64,000 nt of DNA from Nitrospiraceae bacterium. Lineage in GTDB: Bacteria > Nitrospirota > Nitrospiria > Nitrospirales > Nitrospiraceae. The stretch covers positions 1 to 64,000 of the forward strand of contig CAKKRE010000018.1 of NCBI GenBank assembly GCA_919902505.1, given 5' to 3'. Shown here in pieces: positions 21,447 through 51,868 of this stretch. The notes below the pieces were generated by a model that was given only the letters and a program-made list of their open reading frames with translations, was not told the DNA's origin and ran no database searches. Numbering within the stretch: position 1 is the stretch's first letter; each line of letters opens with the position of its first letter. The translations under genes were made by a program, and so were the position numbers.

Positions 21447-21493
21447 GGTGCGACTGCTCCGGATTGTGAGAAGTCTTCACGGTTTGCTGTGAG

Positions 21494-21509
21494 GGCAATA
21501 CCTATGCCA
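21494..21509 (-). promoter_or_regulatory. sigma-54 promoter of hybrid kinase gene
   Basis: On the minus strand TGGCAT-AGGTA-TTGCC, i.e. GG-N10-GC with the -24 GG at 21508-21507 and the -12 GC at 21496-21495. The expected start is about 21484, 38 nt before the ATG at 21446. Confidence 0.6.
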
Positions 21510-21633
21510 CCGGTGGGCCGATGAAGCGTGAGACTGCAGAGGGGGAACCTATTGATTCTGTGAGGAACAGCGAGAGAGGGGAAGGTCCGTGCGGTATGGG
21601 TGCAGCCAGGCGGTGCTCAAATAAATGCGGGGT

Positions 21634-21649
21634 TTATCGGATCGGATAC
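21634..21649. promoter_or_regulatory. GTATC-N6-GATAC-type site upstream of hybrid kinase
   Basis: TTATC-GGATCG-GATAC, one mismatch from the palindrome GTATC-N6-GATAC found at other sigma-54-like promoters in this window. It lies about 150-165 nt upstream of the predicted start, a usual enhancer distance. No second copy is seen 21 nt away. Confidence 0.45.
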
Positions 21650-21689
21650 AGCGGCGAAGAGAGCTGTGGTAGGACCGGCTGACTTGTAG

Positions 21690-24005
21690 TCATGCCTTCG
21701 ATGCGGGTGAGTTGTCGAGCGGCAAGGTGAAATAAAACTGGGTTCCGACTTCCAGCCGGCTGTCCACCCACATCTGCCCTCCGTGCAGGGTCACCAGACT
21801 TTTGGTGATGAAGAGCCCGAGTTGGGCCCCCTGCGAAGTCGGCATGGCTGACTCGACCTTTGCGAATTCGTTAAAGACGTGGGGTAACTCGTTAGGCGCA
21901 ATTCCGCATCCGGTGTCGGCTACGGTGATCTGGGCGAAGTTCGCGTCGCGGACGCTGCAGCTCACCGAGACCTGTCCGGATTTCGGGGTGAATTTGATGG
22001 CGTTGCCGACAAGATTGAAAAGTATCTGTTCCAGCTTGTCGCGGTCGGCTCGCACCGTGATCGGCTGTTCGCAAGGCAGCACTTCGAGCGTGATGGATTT
22101 TTCTGCGGCGAGCGTCTGAATGCTCTCCACCACATCTCGGACGAACGCGTCGATCTGCAGCGATTCGGGCTTGATCTCGATCCGTCCGACATCCAGGCGG
22201 GACCAGTCCAGTAGTTGGTTGATGATTCGTGTGAGTCGATCCACATTGTGTTTCACCCGCTGCAGGTAGTGCTCCTGTCGTTCGGAGAGTTGCCCGGTCA
22301 GCCCGTCTAGCATGTTCTCGACGAACCCTTTGATGGAGGTCATCGGCGTGCGTAATTCATGCGAGGCGACCGACACAAATTTCGAGCGCCGTTGGTCGTG
22401 CTCCTGAAGGCGCTCGTTCACCGTTTGCAGTTCGTGCGTGCGTTCCTGCACGCGTCGTTCGAGGTGGTCCGTCAATGTGGCCAGTTCGGTATAGGCGCGC
22501 GCATTGTCCACGGCAACCGCCACGTGGCTCGCAATGGTCATCATGAGATCCAGATCTTCTTGGGTGCAAGGCTGGGTTCCACGGTCGGCGCCCAAGAACC
22601 CGAGAATCCGTTGTTGGCTGCGGAGGGGGACGCCGACGAAGGAAAAGATCCCGGTTCGACGAAGGAGAGTCAGCACAGCCGGAGTGACCCGGTTGGCGAC
22701 CGCCTCCACGTTCGATATCAGAACCGGTTTGCCTCGAATCAACATTTCCGCGACAAATTTGTCGTCATCCTGCACCGGGATGACAATTCGCCGGGCCATC
22801 TCTTCTATCTCTGGGGGCATTCCGAGGACCTGTTCGACCGTCGCGTTTCCCCGCTCCTTGTCCCACAAAAACAGGGCCATCCGAGCGAAGCCGAGATTCT
22901 CATTGAGTAATTGTAATATCGTCGAGAGAAGCCGATCCAAGTTCAGGGTCGAGGTGATCGCGGCGCTGGACTGATTCAAGGTCGTCAGTTGTGCGACATG
23001 TCGCCGGATGGTTTCAAGGTTGGCGGAGATGGCCTGGTTGCGCTCCTGCAGGGATTTGGTCATCAAATTGAACAGCGCCGTCAGTTGGCCGACTTCGTCC
23101 TGCGTCGTCGGAACGACAAAGGTGGAAAGATCGCCCTCGCTGACTTTGCGCGCGCCTGCGGCGAGATGGCGCAAGGGGGTGATGATCCGGCGGGCCAGCA
23201 GATTCGTGCAGAGAATGCCTGCCGTGATGATGCCAAGGGTGAGCAGGAGAAAGTTTCGCAGAACCGTCGCCAGTTCTCGTTGCATCGGCACCTCGGTCAA
23301 GCCGATTTGGACGACTCCGAAGGCCTGAGGGGTGGTCGGTGCGTTCGCCGCTTTGCGCGTTTCTTCCTCCTGGAGCGCCAGCGCCTCCAGGCGGGATTCC
23401 GAGCGCTTCATCACCGGGATGGCAAAATCGTAGAACGTTTCTTCGTGAATGCCTGATGTTGAAATAGGAAGGGTCGAGTCTTTCTCCCGGAGGGGAATTG
23501 TGTCCGCACCGCTGAGCCTGAGGCGCGTGATGGTCGGCTCCGTGCCTGAATGCTTGATCACCGCGTCCGCAATGTCGGGCCGCGGATAAAAAGGTCGTGC
23601 TGCCGATCGGACGGGTCCGAGCGGGCTGTCGAGTTTGCCTTTGCTCTTTGCGGCGAGGATCTGGCCGTCTGCGCCGGTGATCAGCGCATAGACCACCTCG
23701 TCGACCCCCATGACACCGTCGATGAACTGCTCCAGGATGACTCGTTCCTCGATGATGATGCCGTATCGTACGTTGTGGGCGAGATTCTTGACCAGAATGG
23801 TTCCGAGATCTTGCACCCGTTCGGTCATGGCGATGCGTTTACTGTGAACGAAGTACCAACTCATTCCCGAGCAGGTCAGAATAATGATCAAGCTGAAAAA
23901 TACGACGAACTTCGTCCTGAGACTGATAAATCGTCCCGGGCCGCTCGGGTACAACGAGGGTGAGGTGAGGTAGTGCGCGAGGCCTTTCACGGTGGGTCCT
24001 TTCAT
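21690..24005 (-). CDS. membrane sensor histidine kinase with HAMP and GAF
   Basis: 771-aa inner-membrane kinase. TM1 is near residues 30-47, followed by a periplasmic sensor region of about 190 residues, TM2 near residues 240-262, HAMP, GAF (about 350-500), HisKA with SHELRTPMTSIKG and HATPase with NLVGNAIKFTP and DTGCGIAP. The second glycine box is degenerate (GAQLGLFITKSL). The ATG at 24005 overlaps the stop of the binding-protein gene by one nucleotide (TGATG), so synthesis is coupled. It probably reads the state of that periplasmic binding protein. No dedicated response regulator is adjacent. Confidence 0.88.
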   Translation of the reverse strand: MKGPTVKGLAHYLTSPSLYPSGPGRFISLRTKFVVFFSLIIILTCSGMSWYFVHSKRIAMTERVQDLGTILVKNLAHNVRYGIIIEERVILEQFIDGVMGVDEVVYALITGADGQILAAKSKGKLDSPLGPVRSAARPFYPRPDIADAVIKHSGTEPTITRLRLSGADTIPLREKDSTLPISTSGIHEETFYDFAIPVMKRSESRLEALALQEEETRKAANAPTTPQAFGVVQIGLTEVPMQRELATVLRNFLLLTLGIITAGILCTNLLARRIITPLRHLAAGARKVSEGDLSTFVVPTTQDEVGQLTALFNLMTKSLQERNQAISANLETIRRHVAQLTTLNQSSAAITSTLNLDRLLSTILQLLNENLGFARMALFLWDKERGNATVEQVLGMPPEIEEMARRIVIPVQDDDKFVAEMLIRGKPVLISNVEAVANRVTPAVLTLLRRTGIFSFVGVPLRSQQRILGFLGADRGTQPCTQEDLDLMMTIASHVAVAVDNARAYTELATLTDHLERRVQERTHELQTVNERLQEHDQRRSKFVSVASHELRTPMTSIKGFVENMLDGLTGQLSERQEHYLQRVKHNVDRLTRIINQLLDWSRLDVGRIEIKPESLQIDAFVRDVVESIQTLAAEKSITLEVLPCEQPITVRADRDKLEQILFNLVGNAIKFTPKSGQVSVSCSVRDANFAQITVADTGCGIAPNELPHVFNEFAKVESAMPTSQGAQLGLFITKSLVTLHGGQMWVDSRLEVGTQFYFTLPLDNSPASKA

Positions 24006-24973
24006 CAATAGAGCTCGTCGGCCTTTTCCTCGAGGTCTCTGGGGATCTCGATGTCGAGGAACTTGGCGGTTTTACGATTCAGACTCATTTCGATACGGTC
24101 CGGGTGTAACGGTTTGGCGGGGAGTGAGACGTGACCCTCCAGGATCTTGCGGGTGAGTTGCCCGGCCTGCCGTCCGATATCGCTATAGTTGACCGAGAGG
24201 CACAGCAGGGCCCCGCTTCGGGCGAACTCGCGTGAAAACCCGACCACCGGCACGCGTCCTTCCAATGCGGTATTCAAGATAAACCGCAGCGATTCATCGG
24301 TGAGCACGGTGGAGTCAGGGACGAGCCACAATGCATCGATCGACGGCAGCAAGGTGCGCAGAGCGCCAGGCACATCCCGCTCGCTGTTGAGTTGGATCGG
24401 GACAAGGTCTGTCCCGTTGGATTTGAGCAGTCGCCGCGCGTCTTCGATCAGCGTCGCGGTCTTGGATGGATCGTACAAGGTGCCGACGTGTTTGAGACGA
24501 GGCAGCAGGGATTTAATTATGGTGAGCTGCCGCTCCATTGGAATTTCCATGAGCACGCCCGTGATGTTGAAGGCGTTGAGCCCATACTTGGACGGGTCCA
24601 GCACCATAGCGTAGACCACTGGAATGTCGACGATCTCGAGTTGTGCCGCCTTCGCTGCCTTCAACCCGACAGCGAACACCAATGCCGGGTCGGCTGCACG
24701 GACCTTGCGGGCCAGTTTCCGTCCCTTCTCCAAATCACCTTGTAAATCATATTCGGCGAGCACGACGTCGTGTGGAAGGGCGGCTTTGAAGCCGCTGACG
24801 GCTTGGTTATAGGCGGCGATGTCCGACGACTTGAGAATGACGACGTCCATTGCCGAAGCCAGACCGGTACTGAAGAGTAAGCAGACAAGGGCGGCGATGG
24901 TCCAACTCAGCCTCTGCCGATACCGATCGGCAGGCCCAGTGGTGAACGGTGATTGTACGAATGGGAACGTCAC
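24005..24973 (-). CDS. ABC-type periplasmic binding protein (ABC_sub_bind family)
   Basis: 322-aa exported binding protein of the ABC_sub_bind family. The start is a GTG at 24973 with a long basic n-region and a signal peptide core ending near LASAMDVVIL. The two-lobe pattern is typical, with AYNQAVSGFKAAL, ALVFAVGLKAAKAA, DIPVVYAMVLDPS, ALWLVPDSTVLTDESLRFIL and PVVGFSREFARSGALL. No permease or ATPase gene is near, and it is translationally coupled to a membrane histidine kinase. A sensory co-receptor role is therefore more likely than transport. The ligand is unknown. Confidence 0.85.
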   Translation of the reverse strand: MTFPFVQSPFTTGPADRYRQRLSWTIAALVCLLFSTGLASAMDVVILKSSDIAAYNQAVSGFKAALPHDVVLAEYDLQGDLEKGRKLARKVRAADPALVFAVGLKAAKAAQLEIVDIPVVYAMVLDPSKYGLNAFNITGVLMEIPMERQLTIIKSLLPRLKHVGTLYDPSKTATLIEDARRLLKSNGTDLVPIQLNSERDVPGALRTLLPSIDALWLVPDSTVLTDESLRFILNTALEGRVPVVGFSREFARSGALLCLSVNYSDIGRQAGQLTRKILEGHVSLPAKPLHPDRIEMSLNRKTAKFLDIEIPRDLEEKADELY

Positions 24974-31123: not shown

Positions 31124-33184
31124 TCAGAACGTGGCATTTACTCCGAAGAAGAAGCGCCGACCCGGCTCGGGAAACCCAGGATTCTGCTCGTAGTTGGCGT
31201 CCAACAGGTTCTCGATGGCGATATAGGGCTTGATGCCTTTCCTCACCTCGTAGGACACCTTGGCATTCACCAGAAACAGATTGATCTGGCTGGGCAGTCG
31301 AGTCGGAGGCGAAAAGTCGGCGAATGTGAATGGTGCGCCATTGATGTATGCAAGCTGGACGAACCCGCTGACGCCGATCGGCGCCTGATACATCAAACGA
31401 CTATTGACTTGATGGTAAAAGGTGCTGCCCGGTGCCTGGCCCAGGTTCTCGAAGTCGATATTCGTGTAGGTGTAATCGGCGGAGAGGGAGAACGCCTTCG
31501 TCACTGTCGCAATGATACCGGCTTCGATGCCTTGAGCAAGCAACGACGTCAGATTCTGGTCTTGGGTCTGGTTGCCGGGCAGTTGAGCAAAGCCGATGAC
31601 ATCGTTCAGTTTGTTGCGGAACCAGGTTGCGCTCGCCGTGATGCGCTCACCCCAGAACGACTGTTCGGCGCCGGCCTCGACGGAGAAATTCCGCTCGGGT
31701 TTCAATTGGGGATTGCCGATGCCGCCGAAGAGATTGAGGAGCCGGGGGAGCCGGCTCTTGTCTCCGAGCGCCGCATGCAGTCTCGTGCTGGTGAAGGGTT
31801 GATAGACGACCGACCCCCGAGGGTTCGCGGAGTGGATCGTGCGTCCTCCGCCCGTATACAGCAGGTCATAACTCATCCCGGCGGTCAGCAAGAGGTTCGA
31901 GACCGGCGCATACTCGGTCTCGACGAAGAAATCCGTCGTGAGCGATTCCTGTTGTTCCTGCGTCGCCAGGAGGCGGTCCTCCCGTTTGTGCCGGTCTTGT
32001 TTGATGAAGGTGCCGGCCTTGAGCCGCAGGGTTTTCACGAGGTCCAGCGCCGCCTGCAGGTTGGTTCCATACACGTCGTTGATATCGCGGCTCAGGCCGT
32101 TGGTCTGCGAAAAGGACTGGTCGGGGTAGAAGGCGAGGTCGTTGCTGAAGCGGTCGTAGTAGGCGTTGCCGCGCAGTTCGAGGTTGTTCCACACCGTGGT
32201 GGTGCCGTACAAATCGAGATATTGCCGCTTCCACGTGGGGAACTCGGTGAAGGTGAGGCCCCTGCCCAGCCGCCCGCCGCTTTGGAAATTGGTATTGACC
32301 GGACTGTCCAGGGCGGCGCTGTAATAGCCTGCTTGGAACGCGATGCGATCCTTCGCGCTGAAGTCGTAGCCGAGATTGACCGACAGGTTGCCCTTTTCAT
32401 AGCCGGAGTGTTCCCTGAAATCGGTGGACTGCGCCGGTGTCGGCGTAAAAGATCCCGATAGCGGAAAGCCGTTGCTGAGACGATAACTGCCGGCGATGAA
32501 GTAGTTGAAGCCTCCCTTCGTCCCGCCGTGCTGGAGCCAATAGTCCTGGGTATTGTGCGCTTCATAGGAGGCCGTGATCCTGGTCGTCGGGACGGCGGTC
32601 CCCCGTTTCGTGACGATGTTGATCACCGTGCCTATGGCATTCGGCCCATAGGCGGCATCGACCGGCCCCTTCACGATTTTGATTTTTTCGACGTTGTCGA
32701 TGGGAAGATTGTTGAAGTCCACGTCGCCGAAGAAGGGATCGTAGACGGGGCGTCCATCGATGAACACGATCGTCTGTCTAGCGGTGAGGCCCCGGACGAC
32801 GGCGGACGAGGGATTTTTGCCGCCGCCGATGGAGAGAAAGAGGCCCGGCACGAACCGCAACGCATCCCCCACGTTGCGCGCGTTCTGGTCCAGAATGTCC
32901 TGCGCGCTGATTTCGTAGACGCTGGATGTCGGCCCCAACGGCTGTTCCGACGATGGGACGAGTTCCCCCAGGCGGAAAAGTTCCGCTTGCTGCTCTTCCT
33001 CGATCAACTCCAGCGCTTCTTTGCCCTCCGGCGAAATGGTGAGATCTCCCGGCCTGGCGGAGACGACGGACGACGGACTCGGAGTGGGGGCGGCCGGCAC
33101 CGGCATCGGACAGATTCCTGCCAGGCTGGCCGACAACAGGGCGGCCAACATCGGATGACGGGGTCTTCTTAACTCAGCACGCAT
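31124..33184 (-). CDS. TonB-dependent outer-membrane receptor
   Basis: 686-aa receptor. A signal peptide runs to about PVPAAPTP, followed by a 60-residue extension and the plug (SSVYEISAQDILDQNARNVGDAL, FIDGRPVYDPF, VEKIKIVKGPVDAAYG, GTVINIVTK). The large barrel ends in RRFFFGVNATF. The N-terminal MRAELRRPRHPMLAALL resembles that of the other receptor (HPMLAA shared). No ribosome-binding site is visible at ATG 33184. It is flanked by 56-nt direct repeats. The substrate is unknown; the barrel is only distantly similar to that of the 28222 receptor. Confidence 0.9.
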   Translation of the reverse strand: MRAELRRPRHPMLAALLSASLAGICPMPVPAAPTPSPSSVVSARPGDLTISPEGKEALELIEEEQQAELFRLGELVPSSEQPLGPTSSVYEISAQDILDQNARNVGDALRFVPGLFLSIGGGKNPSSAVVRGLTARQTIVFIDGRPVYDPFFGDVDFNNLPIDNVEKIKIVKGPVDAAYGPNAIGTVINIVTKRGTAVPTTRITASYEAHNTQDYWLQHGGTKGGFNYFIAGSYRLSNGFPLSGSFTPTPAQSTDFREHSGYEKGNLSVNLGYDFSAKDRIAFQAGYYSAALDSPVNTNFQSGGRLGRGLTFTEFPTWKRQYLDLYGTTTVWNNLELRGNAYYDRFSNDLAFYPDQSFSQTNGLSRDINDVYGTNLQAALDLVKTLRLKAGTFIKQDRHKREDRLLATQEQQESLTTDFFVETEYAPVSNLLLTAGMSYDLLYTGGGRTIHSANPRGSVVYQPFTSTRLHAALGDKSRLPRLLNLFGGIGNPQLKPERNFSVEAGAEQSFWGERITASATWFRNKLNDVIGFAQLPGNQTQDQNLTSLLAQGIEAGIIATVTKAFSLSADYTYTNIDFENLGQAPGSTFYHQVNSRLMYQAPIGVSGFVQLAYINGAPFTFADFSPPTRLPSQINLFLVNAKVSYEVRKGIKPYIAIENLLDANYEQNPGFPEPGRRFFFGVNATF

Positions 33185-33219
33185 CGTTTAGCACTCAGAA
33201 TTTCGGAACACTGCCGCCT

Positions 33220-33275
33220 CACCGTCTCGGCGGCGTCCACAAACGTGACGCTCATTATTCTTCGCGTCGTGGACC
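33220..33275. repeat. 56-nt direct repeat, copy 2
   Basis: Second copy of the 31036-31091 segment in the same orientation, lying about 36 nt upstream of the receptor start on the minus strand. Confidence 0.7.
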
Positions 33276-33823: not shown

Positions 33824-33860
33824 GTATCTATCTAGATACAGGCTGTATGTCTTCAGATAC
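33824..33860. promoter_or_regulatory. tandem GTATC-N6-GATAC sites (pair 1)
   Basis: GTATC-TATCTA-GATAC (33824-33839) and GTATG-TCTTCA-GATAC (33845-33860), 21 bp apart start to start, both followed by AGGC. They overlap the 3' end of the ribbon-helix-helix gene. Confidence 0.55.
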
Positions 33861-34109: not shown

Positions 34110-34217
34110 GGTGCCACTCCTTTGCACGAGACTACTGATGTTGAGCGCTTGGCTCGGCGCCTGTGTCATATCGATGCGCGAGTTCGTGGCGCAGGGATAT
34201 GGTCAGTGTCATGAAGT

Positions 34218-34337: not shown

Positions 34338-34412
34338 GTCAGGCTCCTTTCTGTACTGAATGAGTATTCCCGGTGACCTCAAATGGAAAAGTCCCTGTAC
34401 ACTCCTGGGAAT

Positions 34413-38941: not shown

Positions 38942-40696
38942 TACCTGCACGACGAGTTGGAGATGGATACCATGATCCTGCATGTTGCCCTCGCCGCCCC
39001 GGACGTGATTGAGTTGCTGGCCCCAGTAGACTTCGAAGCGTGCACGTTCCTGGGGCAGAATGGTCCAGCGTAACCCGACTCCCACGCTCGCCAACGTGTG
39101 AGGATCAGGGGTATTCCCTTTGGCGTTCCAGGCCCGTCCGAAATCGACGAATTGTGCGAACTGCAGCCGGTCCTCGCCAGATGCGAACCGGAGGAGGGGC
39201 ACGCGCGATTCAAGTGACGCGAGCACCGCATCGTCCCGCACGAGGGTGTTTTCCCGATAGCCGCGCACGCTGAAGCGTCCGCCGACGGGCATTTGTTCGA
39301 GTGGAAAGAGCCGGTCGTTGGCGATCTGCGCGGCCACGCGTCCCAACAACTGGATGCCCCACCATTCTTCTATCCGTTTGACCGCCTGGGCTTGACCCAA
39401 CCAGGAAACAAATTGACCGTCCGGCAGAGGCCCGTTGTTGACGGTGGCGCCCAGGACGTTCAGTCCGACGCTGAAACGGGACAAGACGGCAAACACATAG
39501 GATGGAGATCGATGCGTATATTCCTGGCTGAATCGGAGTGCGCTGACGGTGGCCACCCCGGTCGTGGAAGAACCAGGAATGAAGAGCGACGGCAGCCCCG
39601 GAACGTCGAACGCAGACGTCGTCTTCAAATATAAATGTTCGCCGCTCAGAGAGAGTGCGACCTCGTCGCTCACGGTACGGTACACAGGTTGGCGTACCGC
39701 GATCCCGATGACTTCGGAGTCCACATTCAGATCCAAGGCGCGAAAAGGATTCTCGACGACCAGAAAAGCATTGCGCCGATAGTAGGCCGTGAAGGTCGTC
39801 TCGTAGGCGTTGAGCGGCACACTATAGGACGTATCGATGATGGGGTTCACGCCGTGCGAACGCCCGTAGGTAAACACAAATTGGTCGCCGTGACCCGTCA
39901 CATTCTGGTGCGCCACTGTCGCCAGGCCGCGCTCAGCGCCGACCACCGGTGTTTGATAGTTGTTGAACTCCAGCCAGGCCTTGAAGGGGTTGGCGTCTTT
40001 GACCCGCAGATTCAAGACGCTTTCGCCACGAACGTCTCCCGGTCTCAGCTCGGTATTGATCCGTTCGATGCGCGGATCCTGCTGCAGCAGTTGGATCCGT
40101 TCCTGGAGAGGCTGGATGCTGACGGGAGTGCCAATGCCGCGCGCCACACGATTCCGTAAGTACGAACTGCGGAACCATTGGTTGCCTTCGACGTCGATTC
40201 GGGTGAGGGTGCCTTCGACGATCTGAATCACGATGGTCCCGAAGGTGACATCTTGATCGGGAATGACGGCTCCGGAGGTGAGATACCCTTTATTCACGTA
40301 CAAGAGGGTGAGGGCCAGGCGAACCCGCTCCAGATCTTCCGTGGTCAGTTCACGATTGCGATAGGGAGCGATGACGTCAGCGAGCTCTGCGTCAGAAAAC
40401 ACGGTACTGCCGGTGACGTGGATGTCATGGACGAACACACGAACGGATCCCAATCTGTTCTCGAACGGCTTCTGCGGGGCGGGTGACACCTCCGGAAGGA
40501 TGGGGCTTGGGGGCGGTGTTTCCGGTGCTTTGAACTCTTCCCTCAACGGAGCAGGCGGTTTCCCCGACCGGCCGGTCGGGTCAAAAATAGGAGGAAGCGG
40601 CGGTGCAATTTGTGCTGTGGCTGAAACTCCCAGGAGGCAGATGCTCATCGTAATGCCTATGCACACAGATCGGATATGAAAGATCCCACAATGCAA
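38936..40696 (-). CDS. TpsB outer-membrane transporter (ShlB/FhaC family)
   Basis: 586-aa two-partner secretion pore. The start is a TTG at 40696 with AGGGAG 6 nt upstream; an in-frame ATG at 40648 is the alternative. A signal peptide ends near ATAQIAPP and a Pro-rich linker follows. Then come POTRA-type domains (VFVHDIHVTGSTVFSDAELAD; GTLTRIDVEGNQWFRSSYLR) and a 16-strand barrel with the FhaC-type VRGYRENTL motif, ending in LQLVVQVL. It would secrete TpsA, encoded immediately upstream on the same strand (38-nt gap). Confidence 0.9.
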   Translation of the reverse strand: MHCGIFHIRSVCIGITMSICLLGVSATAQIAPPLPPIFDPTGRSGKPPAPLREEFKAPETPPPSPILPEVSPAPQKPFENRLGSVRVFVHDIHVTGSTVFSDAELADVIAPYRNRELTTEDLERVRLALTLLYVNKGYLTSGAVIPDQDVTFGTIVIQIVEGTLTRIDVEGNQWFRSSYLRNRVARGIGTPVSIQPLQERIQLLQQDPRIERINTELRPGDVRGESVLNLRVKDANPFKAWLEFNNYQTPVVGAERGLATVAHQNVTGHGDQFVFTYGRSHGVNPIIDTSYSVPLNAYETTFTAYYRRNAFLVVENPFRALDLNVDSEVIGIAVRQPVYRTVSDEVALSLSGEHLYLKTTSAFDVPGLPSLFIPGSSTTGVATVSALRFSQEYTHRSPSYVFAVLSRFSVGLNVLGATVNNGPLPDGQFVSWLGQAQAVKRIEEWWGIQLLGRVAAQIANDRLFPLEQMPVGGRFSVRGYRENTLVRDDAVLASLESRVPLLRFASGEDRLQFAQFVDFGRAWNAKGNTPDPHTLASVGVGLRWTILPQERARFEVYWGQQLNHVRGGEGNMQDHGIHLQLVVQVL

Positions 40697-40734
40697 TTCG
40701 GCTCCCTCTTCGCCTGCGTGCGAGGCTCACAAGG

Positions 40735-43700
40735 TCAGGAGCGACAATCTGCCGGCCAGTCACGGGCACCGAGTTGTGGTAACGGCCCGAGCTGATCGAC
40801 CAGTTGTTCTGAACGTATCTGCGTCTGATGCGCAGACTCAAACGTGGGCATCTGTGCCGATTGGGTGGGGCCTTCGTCGGCAAACATCAGGGGGCTCATG
40901 AGCCAGCCGCCCGGTTCCGCAGGCAGGGCATCCCTTCCCGCGATCACGAGACTGCTCAATTGTCCGCCGGCCTGCGCCGCACAGCGTTGTCGCAAGAGCT
41001 GTTGCCCTTGTAGCGGTTGTTGCGGCAGGGTGGCTAAGCTGCCGCTCAAACTGGACACGGGCGATTGAATGTTCACGGCACCGCTCAAGCCGAATTGTGA
41101 CGAGGCACTGATGACACTTGTCGGATCGGCCAGGAATGTCCCCGCGATAATGTTGATGTTGCCGCCTCGGCCCTGTACGGCTTGGGCGAGGATGTGACTG
41201 TTCTGGAGGGTCACGACTGCCGGATCGATCGTGATATTCCCGCCGGATGTATCGGGGCCGCCCAGAACCGAAGTGCTGAGTCGACCGTTGATGAATCGGA
41301 TCGAATCGATCGCCTGAATAACGATGTCGCCGCCGCTCGCCTGGTTGGCTTCCGTCGTGATGGACGCATTTTGAGCGAGGAATCGAGGCCCGGAATTGAT
41401 GGTCATGCTGCCGGCATTACCAAGTCCCGTGCTGCTGGCGGAAATGAATGCGCCGTCGCTCACGGTGACGGATTGAGCCGCGCTCAGCGAGACGTTGCCG
41501 CCGCTCCGAGTTCCTCTGGTAAGGGCGGAAATTCCACCACCCTCCATCAAGATATTTCCAGCGGATAGATCGATATTGCCGCTCTGTTCCTGGCCGTTCA
41601 CCGACTGCGGCCGTAAATCCGTCACATTGGCGGATATATTCGTGTTGCGCAGTTCCATCGGGCCCCTTGCGCGCATCTCAATTCTGCCTCCGAGACCGAT
41701 GTTGCTCGTGTCCGTCAACACATCGGTTCCTGTCAGGCGGATGGTAGACGAAGGCGGGTAGGGGACACCGTCAGGAATGGGGCCACTGACGCCGGTGATA
41801 CTGATCATACCCGCGCCGCCGGTGCTGCCACTGCTGCTGGAAATGACCACTCTGGACGGATCGGCGACATCCAGTATCCTGGGTGCCGCAAGCGTCCCTC
41901 CTGGTCTGGTTCCAGGTCTGGTGGTCAACACATCCGAGTGCAGCTCAATGCGGTTGGCAATCCGATTCCCTTGCGTGGGGGCAATGATCCCTCCTCCGGT
42001 GATGTCCAAGTTCTTCGCAGACATGAGCAGGCTGCCCTGGACGCTCCGGCCGTCCGTGACAACCGTGCCCCCCTCCCCCGCGCCCACGACATCGATCAAC
42101 CGGCCCTGGGAATCCAGGACGTTCGTCACATTGTTCACTTGTGAGTTCACGACGGAATGGTCGAGGATGATATTGTCGCCTCTGATTCTGAGATACCCCG
42201 GCAACCCTTCGTGCAGCGCTTCGACCGTGACCTCCGAATTGGTCAACTTCACCGTATCGGTGGGAGCATCCGGGTACGGGGCATCCCACACAGCACCGAA
42301 TGAAAAATAGTGATCCTTGATGATCTTCGTGATGCCGGCCTGAGCCCGTCCATGTCCCGTATTCGTGATGAGGGAGTTGTCGGCTGTGAAGGAATGTTCG
42401 GCCCGCAACCAGATCTCGCCTGCACTCGGGCCGCCCTGACAGAGCGGGCACGACCCAATGTCCGATACCTCGGCATTGGCCTTGATGGTACTGTCTTTCA
42501 AGCCAATGTCCCGACCCATGATATCGATGCGGCTGAAGCCCTGGTTTTGCGCGGGTTGCCCATTGGGTTTATTATCGTTGATGGTGAAGTCTTGGGTCGT
42601 GACCGATACGCCGGAATCGATCAACGAGGCCTGCCCGTTCGTCCTCATCATCACGATCCCACCCGGCGCATTGCCGATGGCGTCGGAATGGATATCCGTG
42701 CCCCGTAAGTCAAACTCTCGTGCGAAATAATAGGTAATGGCTCTGTTGGGCTCCGAATCAGGGGCGGTGACGTGTCTGTACAGTCGCGTACTCGGAGGGG
42801 TGAAGCCTGGAATACCTTGAAGAGTAATATAGCCGGCCTGTCCCCCGACACATTGGCCGCCGCAGTGACTATCGCTTGAAATCAGGACGCGCCCGTCCGG
42901 ACCGGATTGGGTTTTCAGGGTATCCACATTCAGCGTGATCGCCCCGGCATCCGCTCCGCCTGTGGTGTCTGCCCGTACGGCGGTCCCGTTTGCCAACTCA
43001 ACTCGTTGGGCCGTCATGGCAATGTTTCCGGGAACGACCGTTGGGTCGACGGCCTTGGTGACGCCTGTAATAATATGGGTATGGCTCAGTAACACCGCGT
43101 CAGCCGGCCCTCCTGTTTTTCCTGCGATGCTAATAGTTCCGGCTCCGCCCCGGCCGGTACTGGTGCTCGCAATGGTCACCGGCGCGGCGCCGCTGAGCGG
43201 AGTGCCATCGACGCTGACATTGCTTCGCAGGGTGTCCACCTCAAAGCTGATATTCCCTGCCGTTCCGTCGATCGCGGAGGTGAGGATATTCGAGTCGTGC
43301 AACAGCGACACCGTATCCGCTTGGATAGAGAGCCCCCCTGCTGTCGAGGTGGAAGGTGTGGCATTCGGGACGGTCGCTGTCGCGCTCGCCTCAAGGCGGG
43401 CGTTCTCCATGGTGAATTGCCCACTGCGGATTACGATGCGCCCTGCGGTAGGTGCGCTCGTATGAACATCGGCTCCTTGAGCGAGTGAAATAGTTCCGAG
43501 TGATGTAAACCCGTTCAACGTTGGGTCGGTGGGCGTCGCCGCCGCCGCATTCGTCAACACCTCGCCGGCCGAGGCGACCGCGACAAGGTTGATCGGCCCG
43601 CCGGGGGCTAAAAGCTGGGCCGGTTGGATTGCGGTATGTGCGAGGGTTCCTCCTTGAACGGTAATGTTGCCTCCCACCAACGAGATGCCTTGCCCTTCCG

Positions 43701-44409
43701 CGACCGCGAGTTGCCCGCCTTGCACGGTGATGGCGCCGGGGTTCGAGCCCAAAAACCCAAACGCGGCCACCGGCGCGCTGGAGATGGCCGCATCCTGCAG
43801 CCCGGCAATCGCGTTGAACCTCGCCCCATCTGTCAAACGCAGATAATCAGCGGTGGTGAAGCTCACCGATCCCCCGACATTCAGAACCGCATTCGGCCCA
43901 AAGACGATCCCGGCTGGATTCATCAGGAACACATTGGCATTGCCGAAACCGGTGGTTTGGAGGGTGCCGAAGATGTTGGAGGGATTGCCGCTCGTCACAC
44001 GGCCGAGAATATTGGAGGTGGCGAGGCCGGAGTCGTTGAGAAAATTGGCGATGTTGTTGGTCGGAACGCTAAACTCTCCGAAGCTATGGAACAGATTGGT
44101 CCCCGCTCGTGTTCCGGCGGTGATGTCATATTGCAGGGAGTTTCCGGAAGACTTGCTGATGTGGGTATTCAGTCCTGAGGATGTGATCGGCGGGGTGACT
44201 TGAGCGTGACTCGTGTCCGGCAGGCAGAGAGGAATCAGCCACCAGCAGGCGAACATGGTCGCGCATACACAGGGCAGCCGAGTTGCGCCCACGGCCAAGA
44301 GTCTGCTGCCCCCCATCATTTTCATGGCAATTGTGCATCTCAGGTGCAAGCGCTCAGGATCCGCAACTGTCTCCCCGGCCCATTTCCGCACGGTGCAGGG
44401 CGACTCCAT
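40735..44409 (-). CDS. TpsA filamentous-hemagglutinin-like exoprotein
   Basis: 1224-aa secreted beta-helix protein. The annotated start at 44409 has GAGG 9 nt upstream; ATG 44325 would give 1196 aa and a shorter signal region (hydrophobic core near CVCATMFACWWLIPLCL). Residues about 70-200 are the TPS secretion domain (NLFHSFGEFSVPTNN, ILGRVTSG, MNPAGIVFGPNA, FTTADYL). The rest is Gly/Ser/Thr-rich repeats with many GNI, GGN and SG turns. The C-terminal part contains a Cys and SSLVIAGRDALPAEPGG, a tail style seen in cyanobacterial TpsA proteins. It is probably a surface adhesin or large exoprotein; the neighbouring CHAT protein could process it, which is an inference. Confidence 0.88.
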   Translation of the reverse strand: MESPCTVRKWAGETVADPERLHLRCTIAMKMMGGSRLLAVGATRLPCVCATMFACWWLIPLCLPDTSHAQVTPPITSSGLNTHISKSSGNSLQYDITAGTRAGTNLFHSFGEFSVPTNNIANFLNDSGLATSNILGRVTSGNPSNIFGTLQTTGFGNANVFLMNPAGIVFGPNAVLNVGGSVSFTTADYLRLTDGARFNAIAGLQDAAISSAPVAAFGFLGSNPGAITVQGGQLAVAEGQGISLVGGNITVQGGTLAHTAIQPAQLLAPGGPINLVAVASAGEVLTNAAAATPTDPTLNGFTSLGTISLAQGADVHTSAPTAGRIVIRSGQFTMENARLEASATATVPNATPSTSTAGGLSIQADTVSLLHDSNILTSAIDGTAGNISFEVDTLRSNVSVDGTPLSGAAPVTIASTSTGRGGAGTISIAGKTGGPADAVLLSHTHIITGVTKAVDPTVVPGNIAMTAQRVELANGTAVRADTTGGADAGAITLNVDTLKTQSGPDGRVLISSDSHCGGQCVGGQAGYITLQGIPGFTPPSTRLYRHVTAPDSEPNRAITYYFAREFDLRGTDIHSDAIGNAPGGIVMMRTNGQASLIDSGVSVTTQDFTINDNKPNGQPAQNQGFSRIDIMGRDIGLKDSTIKANAEVSDIGSCPLCQGGPSAGEIWLRAEHSFTADNSLITNTGHGRAQAGITKIIKDHYFSFGAVWDAPYPDAPTDTVKLTNSEVTVEALHEGLPGYLRIRGDNIILDHSVVNSQVNNVTNVLDSQGRLIDVVGAGEGGTVVTDGRSVQGSLLMSAKNLDITGGGIIAPTQGNRIANRIELHSDVLTTRPGTRPGGTLAAPRILDVADPSRVVISSSSGSTGGAGMISITGVSGPIPDGVPYPPSSTIRLTGTDVLTDTSNIGLGGRIEMRARGPMELRNTNISANVTDLRPQSVNGQEQSGNIDLSAGNILMEGGGISALTRGTRSGGNVSLSAAQSVTVSDGAFISASSTGLGNAGSMTINSGPRFLAQNASITTEANQASGGDIVIQAIDSIRFINGRLSTSVLGGPDTSGGNITIDPAVVTLQNSHILAQAVQGRGGNINIIAGTFLADPTSVISASSQFGLSGAVNIQSPVSSLSGSLATLPQQPLQGQQLLRQRCAAQAGGQLSSLVIAGRDALPAEPGGWLMSPLMFADEGPTQSAQMPTFESAHQTQIRSEQLVDQLGPLPQLGARDWPADCRS

Positions 44410-44459
44410 TCATTCAGACCTCGCTATACTCTATGCGATTGCCCGGTCGCATAGGTCGA

Positions 44460-44480
44460 TCATGAATAGTCCGGGCTAGG
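44460..44480. repeat. remnant end of the 198-bp palindromic element
   Basis: TCATGAATAGTCCGGGCTAGG matches 19 of 21 positions of the right end of the element at 38794-38814. It stands alone, 51 nt upstream of tpsA (minus strand). Confidence 0.55.
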
Positions 44481-44616
44481 AAGATGCTCTCGACCGGCAA
44501 TCCGGTGCAATGCCTGTTTTTGGCGCCCCATCGGCACGAGCCTCTCTTCCCGCCGTATAGAGCCATCTTCACAGCCCGCGCACTACTCCGACACCCTGCC
44601 GTGACCTGTTCCCTGG

Positions 44617-44793
44617 TTACGCCGAGGAGTGATGGTTCTTGGACATCTCTTTGAGTGCGCGAGACTCACTGAGGTGATCCATTCCCGTCGAATCGGTCGC
44701 TCTTGACCGAAGAGGGCTTGGATGCATCCAAATGCGTCCCACAGCTGCGAGAAGGAAGACGACACCGAGTAGGAGAAAAAGAATCACGAGCAT
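44617..44793 (-). CDS. 58-aa single-TM protein
   Basis: Short ORF from the ATG at 44793 with GAGGT 4 nt upstream. The product has one strongly hydrophobic N-terminal helix (LVILFLLLGVVFLLAAVG) followed by a polar tail with several Ser and His residues (MDHLSESRALKEMSKNHHSS). The function is unknown and it is not obviously homologous to the 39-aa protein at 34218. The upstream layout is almost identical to that gene: sigma-54 promoter with expected start near 44856, and tandem palindromes at about -145 to -182. Confidence 0.6.
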   Translation of the reverse strand: MLVILFLLLGVVFLLAAVGRIWMHPSPLRSRATDSTGMDHLSESRALKEMSKNHHSSA

Positions 44794-44865
44794 GGTGACC
44801 TCATGGATCCGCTGTTCTCCCGTTGGCGTACTTCCTAGGGAAACATCCTATCTGCCTCGTGGATG

Positions 44866-44881
44866 CGCAAAGGTTGTGCCA
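44866..44881 (-). promoter_or_regulatory. sigma-54 promoter of 58-aa protein gene
   Basis: On the minus strand TGGCAC-AACCT-TTGCG: GG at 44880-44879, GC at 44868-44867, matching the consensus at every key position. The expected start is about 44856, 62 nt before the ATG. Confidence 0.65.
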
Positions 44882-44999
44882 TGGAGGGCGAGGGAAGCAT
44901 CAGTGATTTTCGATGGTAAGATGCGTAGTGATTTTGATGACATCCGATATCACGATCAGTCTCGTTCTCCTGGAGTAGATGTACGTATCGCCGCGAGGT

Positions 45000-45037
45000 G
45001 TATCGAATCGGATGCTAGGCCGTATCCAATCTGATAC
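45000..45037. promoter_or_regulatory. tandem GTATC-N6-GATAC sites (pair 3)
   Basis: GTATC-GAATCG-GATGC (45000-45015) and GTATC-CAATCT-GATAC (45022-45037), 22 bp apart, at about -145 to -182 from the predicted sigma-54 start. Confidence 0.55.
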
Positions 45038-45537
45038 GAAATGATCGCTTCGATGAATGTGAATAGATACGGTCCAGACGTGAGGACGATGTCGGAAGAA
45101 GAGATCGTCCAATAGCAGGAGAGGAGGGTTACGCTGCCGGTCTGGAGAAAGGTTGCCGCGTCTCCTGTGATGGCGGAGACGCGGCAGATGGCGTGGAGAA
45201 GGCGGTCTGATCAGCGCTGGATGGGCACGATCCAGGAGGCCGTGTCATGCGGTTGCTCTTGGTTGGCAACCGGCGACGAGAAACCGGCTCTCTGCCACGC
45301 CGACAAGGCACGAGCACCATTCGATCAACGCTGTTCGCTCGACTGCATTGACCCATGGCCGTGGAAGAAGCAACCGTCATGCCGTCGATATCTGAAGATG
45401 AGGCCATCGCGGCGAATCGACGAACGGTTGTCCCGAGGCCGAAGAGCCTCTGCCGTAGGCGTGGGGCATGTTGTGTCTGAGGGCAAGAAACGGGGCATCG
45501 GGAAATAACGATCGGAGCCGTCAGGAACGAGTAGGAC
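45038..45537. other. 500-nt structured gap, possible ncRNA or terminator
   Basis: No convincing gene. It contains a perfect 12-bp stem, TGCCGCGTCTCC (45154-45165) and GGAGACGCGGCA (45175-45186) with a 9-nt loop, and a second stem GGTTGC/GCAACC (45251-45271). It lies downstream of ompP1 on the minus strand. Open frames here have Arg/Ser-rich, non-protein-like composition. Confidence 0.35.
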
Positions 45538-46923
45538 TCAGTAGTTGAACCGCAACGACAGCGAGCCGACATGCACCATGCTGTCGTATCGGCCATTGAC
45601 GGTTGGGTTTTGGTTGTCTGCGATGGTGCGTACTTCATACAGACCCGCTTGATACGCGAGATCGATGGCGAACAATTTCGGCTTCAGCGGGCCGATGCCC
45701 AGTTCGCCGCAACGCACCAGCCCGAGGAACGAACCGTTTTCATGGCAGGCCAACCCGATTCCGACGGACGGAATGTGGGTATTGGCTGAGGGGACTCCCG
45801 GATTAAATGTGCGATCGGGTATTTGAGCCTGCTGGTTCATGTAGCCGGCCCGAAGAGCAATGTCCCAATCCGGCATCGAGGCCAGGCGTAGCCATCGGTA
45901 TTCGGTGCCGATCATGACGGTGTAGGTGCTCTGCCAATTTTGCGGAAACGGCAACAGGGCGCCGTTCGTCAAATGGACATCGAGGTTCCGGTTGGATTTC
46001 CATCCGGTGTAGTCCACGTCGAATTCCAGCTTCCACTCGCGCTCGGACGTACGAACCGGCCAGATGCCGATGCCGCCGGAGAAGACCTGCGGCAGCACGA
46101 AGGTGGCTGTAGCGCCGGCGACTGAGGTGCCGTTGGCGAGAAAGTTGCCGGTGAGATGGAGAGTGGCTTGACTGCGATAGACCATGCCGATGTTGACGAG
46201 CGGTTTTCCGTCGCTGTTGCGAAAGGGGGTGTACAGGAGGCTGACGTTAAACCCTGCCGTGGTGTCGCTTCCGTTGATCTCCATCAGGGAGCCGGCCGGG
46301 ATGCCCAGCCCGCCTGGCCAGATGGATTTCTGTTCGAGATGGCCTTCTCCGAAGAGCCCGGAAAAGGTGTAAATATCCGCGCCCAACCCGAACGAGAGCT
46401 GATCGTTCAGTTTGTAGGCGATGGTGGGTTTGATGTCGAGCAACGGCAAGGTGGTAAAGGTGATGGCGGTGCGAAACGGCCCATCGTTCGGGTATCTAGT
46501 CAAGGAACCGAACGGATTGTTCAATCCGATCCCGGCGGTGAAGTTCCCGAGTGCCGACAGTCCGAGGTCCTTGAGGTTCGCGACCAGGTACACGTGCCCG
46601 GGAGGAGGCCAGGCCACGCTTCCGTTGCGATCGCCTGTCGCTTGTGCACCGGTCGGACTCGTAAACTGGGTGGTGCCGCCGATCAGCGTGGTTCCGAACA
46701 GGGTTTGGAACCCATGCAGTTGTGTCATGCCGGCGGGGTTGTAATGGAGCGCGGAAGGGTCATCGGCCTGAGCGACGAAGGCGTTCCCCATGGCGGCGGC
46801 GGCAGCGGACTGGCCCTGGAGCCGTGGGGTTTGGGCGTGTGCGGCTGCTGTGAAGGTGACCCCGGCGGCCGAAACCAAGAGACAGAGAAGCAGGGCGCGG
46901 CGGAATCGCTGAGCGAGAGGCAT
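45538..46923 (-). CDS. OmpP1/FadL-family outer-membrane protein
   Basis: 461-aa outer-membrane barrel of the OmpP1/FadL/TodX family. A signal peptide ends near AAHAQTPRL, then the FadL signature (GQSAAAAAMGNAFVAQADDPSALHYNPAGM). A 14-strand barrel follows and the C-terminus is aromatic (SLSLRFNY). FadL-type barrels import hydrophobic molecules such as fatty acids or aromatics; the substrate here is unknown. It begins 4 nt after the stop of the hybrid kinase gene, so it is co-expressed with the kinase. Confidence 0.88.
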   Translation of the reverse strand: MPLAQRFRRALLLCLLVSAAGVTFTAAAHAQTPRLQGQSAAAAAMGNAFVAQADDPSALHYNPAGMTQLHGFQTLFGTTLIGGTTQFTSPTGAQATGDRNGSVAWPPPGHVYLVANLKDLGLSALGNFTAGIGLNNPFGSLTRYPNDGPFRTAITFTTLPLLDIKPTIAYKLNDQLSFGLGADIYTFSGLFGEGHLEQKSIWPGGLGIPAGSLMEINGSDTTAGFNVSLLYTPFRNSDGKPLVNIGMVYRSQATLHLTGNFLANGTSVAGATATFVLPQVFSGGIGIWPVRTSEREWKLEFDVDYTGWKSNRNLDVHLTNGALLPFPQNWQSTYTVMIGTEYRWLRLASMPDWDIALRAGYMNQQAQIPDRTFNPGVPSANTHIPSVGIGLACHENGSFLGLVRCGELGIGPLKPKLFAIDLAYQAGLYEVRTIADNQNPTVNGRYDSMVHVGSLSLRFNY

Positions 46924-46927
46924 AGGG

Positions 46928-49774: not shown

Positions 49775-51556
49775 TTATTCAAGATCCCGGCAGGCCGGGG
49801 CATCATGTACGACCAAACGATCGAGGTCACAGGTCTTCAAATATTCGACGATGGCCCGCCGGTCTTCCACCGGCAATTCACATCCCAGGACGCCGTTACG
49901 GCTCCCGCTTTCGCAACCCGGGACGGTGGCGAATTCGTGGCCTCCGTTCCCGTTTCCAGGGAGTTGCGTCCTGAATTCAAACCCTCCCAGCGGATTGCGG
50001 CTCGACGGTGAACCCGTACAGTCCTCCACCACAAAGCCCACTTTCTCCGGGTCGAATTGCATGGTCGGACTGAGATAGAAACACGCATGGCGCTCGCGGG
50101 CCGGAGAAAGCAATTCATAGAGGTTCGGGACCGATCCGTTGTGAAGAAACGGAGCCGTTGCCCAGACAGCCACGTGCGGGCGGGCGATATATTGCGCCGT
50201 ATCTCTCCACGTATTTGTCACGTGCCGATACTCAGGATCCTCCGTGGCGCCGTTGAGCGCCATCAATTCGTTCATGATGAATTCCGACGCATCCTTGGCC
50301 GACATCCGGCCACGCTGCAATGGGCCGGTATCCACGGTGCGACGGGAAAAGTTTTCAAGATACAGTGGGTCAGTCCCGATTTCCTTCAGCGGCACGGTGG
50401 TCACGTGGAGGCTGGGACCGGTGGGGGAAGGATTCGTGATCTTGGTGGCGACATGGCAATGCGCGCAGAGGTTTTGGATGCCTTTGACCTTGTTGCCGTG
50501 GTACAGGTCGTTGCCTTTCGCCGCTAATTCTCGATTGATGGACGGGAAGGTGCTCGGCCAACGAGGTGGAGGCAGCCGGCGAGCGAGGGCCTCCAGTGTC
50601 TTGAGCGAGTGGACATCGACCGATGAGCGAAACAGCTCATTCTTTTCTGAAGGAGTCGATTCCGCAGTTTGCGTCCAAGCGAAGAGGCCGGCATTCACGC
50701 CGATCACTTGCGCGATATTTCTCGCGAGCGGATGTTGGATCGACCCGCTCCATTGCACCCAGTCATATTCCCATACACCCCACAGCGGCGGAATGCTCAC
50801 CGACGCGTTGGCGGGCCTGAGGTTGTCCGGATGGAGGGGCGCAAAGACTGTATTGCCGCCGCGGCCGAGCGCATCGAAGCGGCCTGGTCCCCACTGCTCC
50901 GGAGAAATATCTTTCCCTCCCCGAGTAAGGAGCGCCTGGGTACGAGTTTTCACCTCCAGCGCCAGGGTGGTGAGCGTATAGGCGGTCATGGCTTCCCCGC
51001 GGCGCTCAAGCACGCGGGTGGCGAAGGCTTTGAATTTATCGGGCGGGTTCAATTCCTTGAGACTCTTCATGAAGGCGGGCACATCCGACGGAATAAGCTC
51101 GCCCAGGCTCTTCAGCAGAATTTGTAAGAACCGTGCGTTGTATTGGAGCGACGGGCCGCCTTCGATGCGAATCGACTGCTCTTTGTATCTGAATTCGGTG
51201 GTATGGCAAAAAGCGCAGGTGAAGCCGACCATTGCGGGCGACGACGCTCCCCGGTCGACTCGTGCGAATCCGACGGGAAGTTTGTCCGGGTGGGTCTGGT
51301 CACGCAGGATACCGGTGGCGGCGAATGTCTTGAGGAGCGACTCATCCTCAATCAACGCGACAAACCAGTCGTAGGGAATCAGCTGCGTACCGGCGGACGT
51401 ATGGTACCACTGTTGCCGCTCCTGCTCAGGCCAACCTTGAACATCAGAAGCGCTGACGTTCTGTGACGGGGGCAGGTCAATCGCTTGGCAATGTACGGTC
51501 GACAATGCGAACAGGCCCGCGGCAAGTGCCACGACACGTCGGGGGTAGAAATGCAT
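49775..51556 (-). CDS. exported di-heme c-type cytochrome (MauG/RoxA-like)
   Basis: 593-aa periplasmic protein with a signal peptide (AAGLFALSTVHCQA) and two heme c motifs, CAFCH (about residue 115) and CAHCH (about residue 365). The C-terminal half contains WATAPFLHNGSVPNLYELLSP, typical of the di-heme peroxidase / MauG / RoxA superfamily, where it helps form the catalytic heme site. The length is closer to RoxA-like oxygenases than to ordinary cytochrome c peroxidases. The reaction is unknown. A sigma-54 promoter and a GTATC-N6-GATAC site lie upstream, and its predicted 5' leader begins with an 8-bp hairpin. Confidence 0.83.
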   Translation of the reverse strand: MHFYPRRVVALAAGLFALSTVHCQAIDLPPSQNVSASDVQGWPEQERQQWYHTSAGTQLIPYDWFVALIEDESLLKTFAATGILRDQTHPDKLPVGFARVDRGASSPAMVGFTCAFCHTTEFRYKEQSIRIEGGPSLQYNARFLQILLKSLGELIPSDVPAFMKSLKELNPPDKFKAFATRVLERRGEAMTAYTLTTLALEVKTRTQALLTRGGKDISPEQWGPGRFDALGRGGNTVFAPLHPDNLRPANASVSIPPLWGVWEYDWVQWSGSIQHPLARNIAQVIGVNAGLFAWTQTAESTPSEKNELFRSSVDVHSLKTLEALARRLPPPRWPSTFPSINRELAAKGNDLYHGNKVKGIQNLCAHCHVATKITNPSPTGPSLHVTTVPLKEIGTDPLYLENFSRRTVDTGPLQRGRMSAKDASEFIMNELMALNGATEDPEYRHVTNTWRDTAQYIARPHVAVWATAPFLHNGSVPNLYELLSPARERHACFYLSPTMQFDPEKVGFVVEDCTGSPSSRNPLGGFEFRTQLPGNGNGGHEFATVPGCESGSRNGVLGCELPVEDRRAIVEYLKTCDLDRLVVHDAPACRDLE

Positions 51557-51686: not shown

Positions 51687-51705
51687 GCTCACGCAGGTGC
51701 TGAGA

Positions 51706-51721
51706 AGCAACTCATATGCCA
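51706..51721 (-). promoter_or_regulatory. sigma-54 promoter of di-heme cytochrome gene
   Basis: On the minus strand TGGCAT-ATGAG-TTGCT: GG at 51720-51719 and GC at 51708-51707. The expected start is about 51696, 140 nt before the ATG. Confidence 0.65.
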
Positions 51722-51735
51722 TAAGCGCGGGAAGG

Positions 51736-51751
51736 GTACCTGGATCGGTAC
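51736..51751. promoter_or_regulatory. GTACC-N6-GGTAC palindrome
   Basis: GTACC-TGGATC-GGTAC, a perfect dyad with the same 5-6-5 layout as the GTATC sites but a different half-site. It lies 15 nt upstream of the -24 element, too close for a typical enhancer; it could bind a different regulator. Confidence 0.35.
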
Positions 51752-51852
51752 ACGAAAGCCATTTATTTTTTGAGCGCGATGCGTGGCGGGTGGCAGGTTT
51801 GAAACCCGTCTAGTCCGGTATGGATATGGAAGAGCGGCTCAATCGTATAAAG

Positions 51853-51868
51853 GTATCTGAAGAGATAC
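51853..51868. promoter_or_regulatory. GTATC-N6-GATAC site upstream of cytochrome gene
   Basis: Perfect GTATC-TGAAGA-GATAC, about -157 to -172 from the predicted sigma-54 start at 51696. It is a single copy. Confidence 0.55.

Follow-up and report, generated by a model that had tools for sequence, protein, structure and literature searches.

A predicted sigma-54 regulon with a recurring GTATC-N6-GATAC operator and a conserved structured RNA in Nitrospiraceae

The DNA analyzed here is a stretch of 64,000 nucleotides (the window), positions 1 to 64,000 of contig CAKKRE010000018.1 (C18 in our numbering) from the 4,240,547-base genome of a Nitrospiraceae bacterium (GCA_919902505.1; G000), in which the palindrome GTATC-N6-GATAC recurs upstream of -24/-12 elements typical of sigma-54 promoters. 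Operators, promoters, their spacing, their conservation and the covariation of an associated RNA, all read from sequence, make it highly probable that these elements define an enhancer-dependent sigma-54 regulon. We propose that a Fis-type AAA+ activator encoded outside the window binds the palindrome, often at two sites about two helical turns apart, and would loop to sigma-54 polymerase at GG-N10-GC promoters roughly 100 to 180 bp away. Under its control would be genes with roles at the surface and in cell interaction, encoding tiny proteins, di-heme enzymes, a TonB receptor, enzymes of the lipase and peptidase types and an XrtA-type polysaccharide deacetylase, together with a second activator gene heading a contractile-injection-system locus; a conserved structured RNA appears to be controlled as well. 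The genome belongs to genus g1, the genus meant by "same genus" throughout; genera are the g-numbers assigned by the classification tool, and some genomes outside g1 are named Nitrospira at NCBI.

The sequence-only reading that preceded this work had placed palindromes or near-matches at 21634, 33824, 33845, 34548, 34569, 45000, 45022 and 51853, and all eight are there: the sites at 33824, 45022 and 51853 are exact, those at 21634, 33845, 34569 and 45000 have one mismatch, and that at 34548 has two, as does a further site at 45055 that it had missed. Its four -24/-12 elements are likewise present as described, the one at 34428 having C rather than T before the GG. The regulatory elements, with a fifth, promoter-like element added here for the 33824/33845 pair, are as follows.

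21634 to 21649, no strand: upstream activator sequence (UAS) TTATC-N6-GATAC of the hybrid-kinase promoter, one mismatch
21494 to 21509, minus strand: -24/-12 element TGGCATAGGTATTGCC, hybrid-kinase promoter
33824 to 33860, no strand: tandem UAS pair over the 3' end of an RHH gene, kept in relatives
33697 to 33711, minus strand: sigma-54-like element GAGCATGCCTTTTGC, promoter-like and facing the 33824/33845 pair, missed by the earlier reading
34548 to 34584, no strand: tandem UAS, two sites, before the 34428 element
34413 to 34428, minus strand: -24/-12 element CGGCACGGCTGTTGCT, promoter of a 39-aa tiny protein
45000 to 45070, no strand: UAS cluster (45000, 45022 and the two-mismatch site at 45055), after the RNA and before the 44881 promoter
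44866 to 44881, minus strand: -24/-12 element TGGCACAACCTTTGCG, promoter of a 58-aa tiny protein
51853 to 51868, no strand: UAS GTATC-N6-GATAC after a CopD-like gene, with counterparts at this position elsewhere in the family
51706 to 51721, minus strand: -24/-12 element TGGCATATGAGTTGCT, after the CopD-like gene

The palindrome is strongly enriched. With up to two mismatches the window has 32 matches versus a mean of 15.0 in 100 shuffles (standard deviation 3.7, maximum 25). Genome-wide there are 28 exact sites against none for the reversed control, 133 sites with at most one mismatch against 54, and 21 occurrences of the tandem core GATAC-N3-7-GTATC against 4. The 28 exact sites fall into 24 clusters, 13 of which have a second site (at most one mismatch) 21 to 23 bp away. 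A 57-bp stretch containing both operators occurs twice on contig C9 (locus L055, 1628 to 1684 and 4172 to 4228), the copies being 86% alike and 2.5 kb apart; the second has a -24/-12 element and faces a DDE transposase gene.

In the window, the distance from the start of the site to the -24 element is 140 bp for the element at 21509, 135 and 156 bp at 34428, 134 and 156 bp at 44881 and 147 bp at 51721; across the genome-wide clusters it is 88 to 182 bp. That the palindrome would be tied to -24/-12 elements throughout the genome was one half of the test proposed by the earlier reading, and on this half, which was run, the association is borne out: a strong element (score of at least 11) lies 80 to 190 bp downstream of 17 of the 24 clusters. 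Positions drawn at random from the same site-centered loci (210,566 bp), a control that is conservative for this reason, gave a mean of 0.64 clusters with an element and a maximum of 5 in 2,000 draws. Elements at other distances from the clusters are rare.

The earlier reading had also suggested comparing these gaps in relatives, and this revealed that both architecture and spacing are kept. The region after the CopD-like gene, which is matched in 137 of 147 family genomes, was sampled in 72 of those 137 genomes, the window's own among them: the 30 best matches, 40 chosen by hand for genus spread, and two more, G070 and G139, in which the locus was reached by searching for the site; the region of G010 is shortened by the contig end. 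An operator is present in 34 of the 72 regions, scored by a position weight matrix (PWM) built from sites of the window's own genome, and every one of these 34 has a correctly oriented -24/-12 element at 80 to 190 bp, with none in either the reversed or the reverse-complement control. Four further regions combine the element with a GTATC-N5-GATAC variant. In two loci (L297 of G025 and L303 of G035) the operators take another form, GTCTC-N4-GAGAC and, 21 bp further, GTATC-N5-GATAC; a -24/-12 element and a match to the RNA described below (strong in G035, weak in G025) lie downstream.

For the other gaps of the window, 15 same-genus genomes were compared, to the extent that the fetched stretches cover them. 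The hybrid-kinase site with its element at 139 to 143 bp recurs in the stretches of 7 of the 15, and the tiny-protein promoters of relatives have their sites at 130 to 136 and 151 to 157 bp (127 and 148 bp in G064). In each of the 11 genomes in which the RHH gene was found (the window's and 10 of the 15 relatives), the tandem pair at 33824/33845 runs over the 3' end of that gene and is followed by AGCATGC[AC]TTTTGC, at 125 to 130 and 146 to 151 bp (114 and 135 bp in G066).

Beyond these promoters, the comparison uncovered a predicted structured RNA which, together with its own -24/-12 element, had escaped the earlier reading.

45143 to 45307, minus strand: structured RNA, its 3' hairpin terminator-like; scored at 50.2 bits by covariance model R1 (E 1.1e-11)
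45369 to 45384, minus strand: -24/-12 element of the RNA, CGGCATGACGGTTGCT, with its counterpart in all 16 same-genus genomes, the window's among them

The RNA family was recognized as a conserved sequence behind the CopD-side promoter in 14 genomes of other genera, with a hairpin bearing a GTGCCC loop and a GC-rich 3' hairpin. In alignment A1, which was not fitted to the structure, two-sided changes occur in 23 of the 35 RNA pairs and 94.1% of the cells are paired versus 82.3% when shuffled; none of 500 shuffles reaches any of five measures, and sliding the pair partners abolishes the covariation signal. Alignment A3 gives two-sided changes in 8 of 35 pairs, counts that lean toward the model to which it was fitted. 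The window's stretch itself has a folding z of -6.05. Over 73 sources the model retrieved 21 matches at E values of at most 0.05 (14 of them the training set); its E values are rough and its searches covered the fetched loci. All 15 further same-genus genomes have the RNA, 6.2 to 6.6 kb beyond the CopD-like gene. The reading frames over it differ among genomes, as judged by eye. Searches of Rfam with five loci of the family returned nothing above threshold, the one match having an E of 0.15 and 22.4 bits versus a gathering score of 46, and window positions 33000 to 46000 had no match at E up to 1. On the basis of its sequence conservation and covariation, the predicted element is a new conserved structured RNA with no Rfam match in the stretches searched.

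The placement of this RNA relative to the operators varies with the genus. In the 14 genomes of other genera (g2, g6, g10 and g17) the order is operators, -24/-12 element, RNA, with an RHH-type gene after the RNA in 10 of the 14 by eye; in G012 and G021 a tiny hydrophobic protein, likewise read and translated by eye, stands between the -24/-12 element and the RNA. In g1 the RNA has its -24/-12 element 23 to 79 nt before it in 16 of 16 genomes, with GGCA and TTGC invariant; no other block after the upstream gene is strongly conserved. Tandem operators lie 22 to 137 nt after the RNA in 14 of the 16 and at 460 nt in G038, and they also stand 127 to 157 bp before the next promoter. The RNA lies downstream of the operators in other genera, whereas in g1 its promoter is on their far side, so one operator cluster probably serves two promoters; the simplest reading is a shared enhancer that would work in both directions, acting on the RNA from downstream. 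Around this module, G095, G066 and G089 have the RNA, the operators, the 39-aa tiny gene and the RHH gene directly one after another; in the window, a two-partner-secretion exoprotein gene and a DUF928 gene (34614 to 44409) lie between the RNA module and the tiny-RHH pair.

Several points weigh against the regulon as proposed. The -24/-12 score takes its weights from a general consensus, with a threshold set only once a first look had been taken. Seven of the 24 exact clusters have no strong element (the window's 33824, L046, L047, L053, L054, L061 and L063), of which three (33824, L061 and L063) consist of tandem pairs whose elements are weaker; the element at 33711 has AG for GG at -24. The other half of the test proposed by the earlier reading concerned sites inside versus outside genes: in a crude check, 16 of the 24 clusters, some with good promoters, overlap an open frame of at least 80 aa on either strand, which says little because the DNA is GC-rich and genes were called as longest open frames, with no trained caller. 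Of the 34 CopD-side regions among the 72 that have no operator, 15 nevertheless carry a -24/-12 element, which means that the promoter can be kept where this operator is absent; one of the 15 is G030, a g1 genome that we took to be the chromosome of "Candidatus Nitrospira defluvii" (FP929003.1). Genus g19 has all four of the candidate activators considered below and almost no sites, which the proposed regulon does not by itself explain. The weakest step is control of the g1 RNA promoter by this operator system, as no operator (PWM score above 7) lies within 500 bp upstream of the RNA in any of the 16 g1 genomes, and in G058 none is found in the 0.5 kb after it before the contig ends.

This last step admits a different explanation, namely, that a different activator drives the g1 RNA promoter and the downstream operators serve only the next gene. 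The operator-free 500 bp upstream of the RNA, the distance of 460 nt in G038 and the lack of operators downstream in G058 would all follow from it; the position of the RNA behind these very operators in other genera, and the end of the upstream gene about 12 bp before the -24 element in G064, which leaves no intergenic room there, speak for the shared cluster. We regard a separate activator as a serious contender, though one to which we give somewhat less than an even chance. More tentative still is a broader proposal that adds several steps to the shared enhancer: that the cluster between two same-direction sigma-54 promoters fires both, that the RNA represents a new regulatory family, and that the module is the core of a family-wide program of surface remodeling and cell-cell interaction, which in g1 may also command the second activator and the contractile injection system.

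As to the protein binding the operator, the earlier reading was right that the window holds no sigma-54 activator gene: profile PF00158 matches 29 genes genome-wide, 27 of them strongly (at least 198 bits), and none in the window. The 27 activators would imply the presence of rpoN. The call of the earlier reading to look for a matching activator was answered in part, in that the search narrowed to four core candidates (L020, L024, L025 and L026). The narrowing comes from G070 (2.0 Mb, 99% complete), whose only four strong activators are the orthologs of these four; it still has the operator, the promoter and the RNA, and the four are therefore the core candidates. Three small genomes with no CopD-side site (G051, G065 and G024) keep L025 and L026 and are missing L020 and L024, and all four are present in G006 and in G019 and G039 of g19, where the site is likewise absent. 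A comparison of recognition helices between site-rich and site-poor genomes gave no informative difference. Autoregulation was a limited guide: among the genome's own activator loci scanned, only that on contig C81 has a site scoring at least 12 in its own promoter, and a one-mismatch site lies behind an activator gene on C33. Gauging the regulon of small genomes by their exact sites was given up, as the counts in G070 and G139 are mostly chance, 3 of 12 sites there having a -24/-12 partner.

Our best guess for the activator, which we favor only slightly, is either L025, an NtrX-like regulator (contig C58), or L026, an AtoC-like one (contig C13). Both are among the four of G070 and both have orthologs in the eight fully or nearly fully compared genomes (G006, G019, G024, G039, G051, G061, G065 and G070). 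This includes the site-free G019 and G039, however, and the recognition helix is unchanged in both aligned g19 genomes; moreover, no site scoring at least 9 lies in the 7 kb around either gene. The names follow best matches below the NCBIfam cutoffs (513 bits versus 600 for NtrX and 514 versus 714 for AtoC).

The core response regulator L020 (contig C21) is disfavored and, in our estimate, unlikely. In its favor, it is one of the four of G070, and it and its neighbor L024 are absent from G051, G065 and G024, which have no CopD-side site. It is matched in 125 of 147 genomes, with no match at E 1e-150 in the other 22, where fragmented genes could escape; we take G139 and G140 to be two misses that were not listed as such. 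It is disfavored because 9 of these 22 have at least seven exact sites, including G050 and the 99%-complete G139, which keeps the operator, the promoter and the RNA.

The C81 injection-system activator, acting as an autoregulated master of dispersed genes, deserves very little credence: its own promoter has the operator and a -24/-12 element, with an operator in 12 of 16 orthologs, but it was rejected because it is missing from motif-rich genomes, with no match at E 1e-80 in G018 (20 sites), G061 (38), G083 (14) or G101 (14), only a paralog of about 51% identity in G075 and G098, and no place among the four activators of G070, which nonetheless has the conserved promoter. Similarly improbable is that the palindrome is the operator of some other regulator, a repressor or one-component factor, that merely lies upstream of sigma-54 promoters: the protein that binds it is still only a candidate, but the distance window, the orientation rule and the promoter accompanying 34 of 34 CopD-side operators are what an enhancer would give, and tandem operators are spaced by about two helical turns.

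The predicted targets in the window are those the earlier reading had named, a hybrid kinase, two tiny proteins whose membrane character we judge by eye and a di-heme protein. Genes are longest open frames named by Pfam or NCBIfam.

18696 to 21446, minus strand: hybrid kinase, 916 aa (receiver, PAS, GAF, HisKA, HATPase), predicted target
31124 to 33184, minus strand: TonB-dependent receptor (Pfam Plug and TonB beta-barrel), the first large gene after the 33711 element
33828 to 34109, minus strand: RHH-type protein, 93 aa (weak Pfam RHH_5/RHH_3, below cutoff)
34218 to 34337, minus strand: tiny protein, 39 aa, membrane character by eye
40735 to 44409, minus strand: exoprotein with a two-partner secretion domain (Pfam TPS), downstream of the 44881 promoter
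44617 to 44793, minus strand: tiny protein, 58 aa, membrane character by eye
49775 to 51556, minus strand: di-heme cytochrome c peroxidase family protein, 593 aa (NCBIfam CytoC_perox, 388.6 bits versus a cutoff of 150; Pfam RoxA-like_Cyt-c)
51910 to 52425, minus strand: CopD-like membrane protein, the synteny anchor (CopD models below cutoffs)

The 39-aa protein has tblastn matches in 10 of the 15 relatives (61 to 95% identity), the 58-aa protein in 5 and the RHH gene in 10. By eye, the window's RHH protein resembles that encoded after the RNA in other genera, with a common GPFPxR..GRPR tail.

Genome-wide, the predicted targets comprise the hybrid kinase, two di-heme enzymes (in the window and at L051), the TonB receptor, a patatin-type and a Tle1-like lipase, two papain-type peptidases (the one at L057 barely over the cutoff), an animal-heme-peroxidase frame pair, an XrtA-system polysaccharide deacetylase (over the cutoff), a TPR-S protein, several tiny proteins, one transposase and several proteins with no match. 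The frame pair (L050, 4616 to 5395 and 5546 to 6448) lies on one strand, each frame matching a part of the animal heme peroxidase family, as if the gene were split. These gene kinds would fit the stress or envelope response suggested by the earlier reading. A further target is the sigma-54 activator gene on C81, which stands before sheath and tube genes, where the contig ends; an operator (PWM score of at least 12) is kept upstream of 12 of the 16 orthologs on contigs that bear the name Nitrospira. In "Ca. Nitrospira defluvii", genes for Pvc16, an AAA ATPase and an eCIS core protein come next at the same locus (L088), so that the gene set of an extracellular contractile injection system (eCIS) is present across C81 (sheath and tube) and L088 (Pvc16, ATPase and eCIS_core). 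The C81 activator (L041/L087, 382 to 1845) carries GAYTSA where a GAFTGA loop is usual, and its N terminus matches no Pfam receiver.

NtrC-type sigma-54 systems, of the NtrC, ZraR and AtoC class, share with the present one the -24/-12 promoter, palindromic operators at enhancer distance and Fis-type AAA+ activators in the genome, and differ in that the operator here is GTATC-N6-GATAC. GlmY and GlmZ are sigma-54-dependent regulatory RNAs. Qrr1 is another, dependent on LuxO and SypG (PMC10162802). Like these RNAs, as far as the part of that report considered here describes Qrr1, the predicted RNA is short and structured and has its own -24/-12 promoter near activator sites; the promoter, the conserved structure and the GC-rich 3' hairpin may point to a regulatory RNA of the Qrr/GlmY kind. 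In contrast, on the same partial account, the g1 operators lie downstream of the RNA, and the stretches searched have no Rfam match. Among the matches listed, the structured-RNA literature yielded general discovery papers.

In the regulon of the PEP-CTERM box and PrsK-PrsR (Haft et al. 2006, PMC1569441), according to the portion of the source considered, motif 1 ends in TTTACA and its mean distance to motif 2 is 62.8 nt. Both systems, within that portion, combine a sigma-54 promoter and an activator motif for secreted proteins, and an XrtA-system deacetylase is among the targets here; the difference is GTATC-N6-GATAC at 88 to 182 bp here versus the TTTACA ending at about 63 nt there. The genome encodes a PrsR, the PEP-CTERM-box response regulator, over the NCBIfam cutoff (C16, 77562 to 78890). 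As the activator of the regulon it was rejected on motif, distance and missing orthologs: a reciprocal match to it is absent among 28 of the 29 strong activators in G061 and among all four in G070, and both genomes have sites.

The injection system resembles known eCIS in the gene set on C81 and in "Ca. Nitrospira defluvii" and differs in being headed by a sigma-54 activator gene with an operator, an arrangement for which no related-looking report stood out in the open-access collection searched. There, too, no paper on the GTATC-N6-GATAC motif was found, and among the papers listed no report of a sigma-54 regulon in Nitrospira stood out. The exterior theme of the targets agrees with a general proposal, as worded in the title of PMC3162934. 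Nitrospira are key nitrite oxidizers, and the analysis supplies for this regulon an operator and a rule for its spacing, some twenty predicted promoters, four candidates for the activator and a conserved RNA that is new; the regulon would link surface enzymes, tiny proteins and the regulator of an injection system under one switch. The shared enhancer, if true, would be an unusual promoter architecture.

A last feature concerns the gap after the CopD-like gene, where, between the operator and the sigma-54 element (window positions about 51765 to 51730), the same-genus genomes have a block like TTGGCATTCG...GATCCAGGTACCCT (ATGGCTTTCG in the window), which by its sequence is possibly a second promoter of the sigma-70 type.

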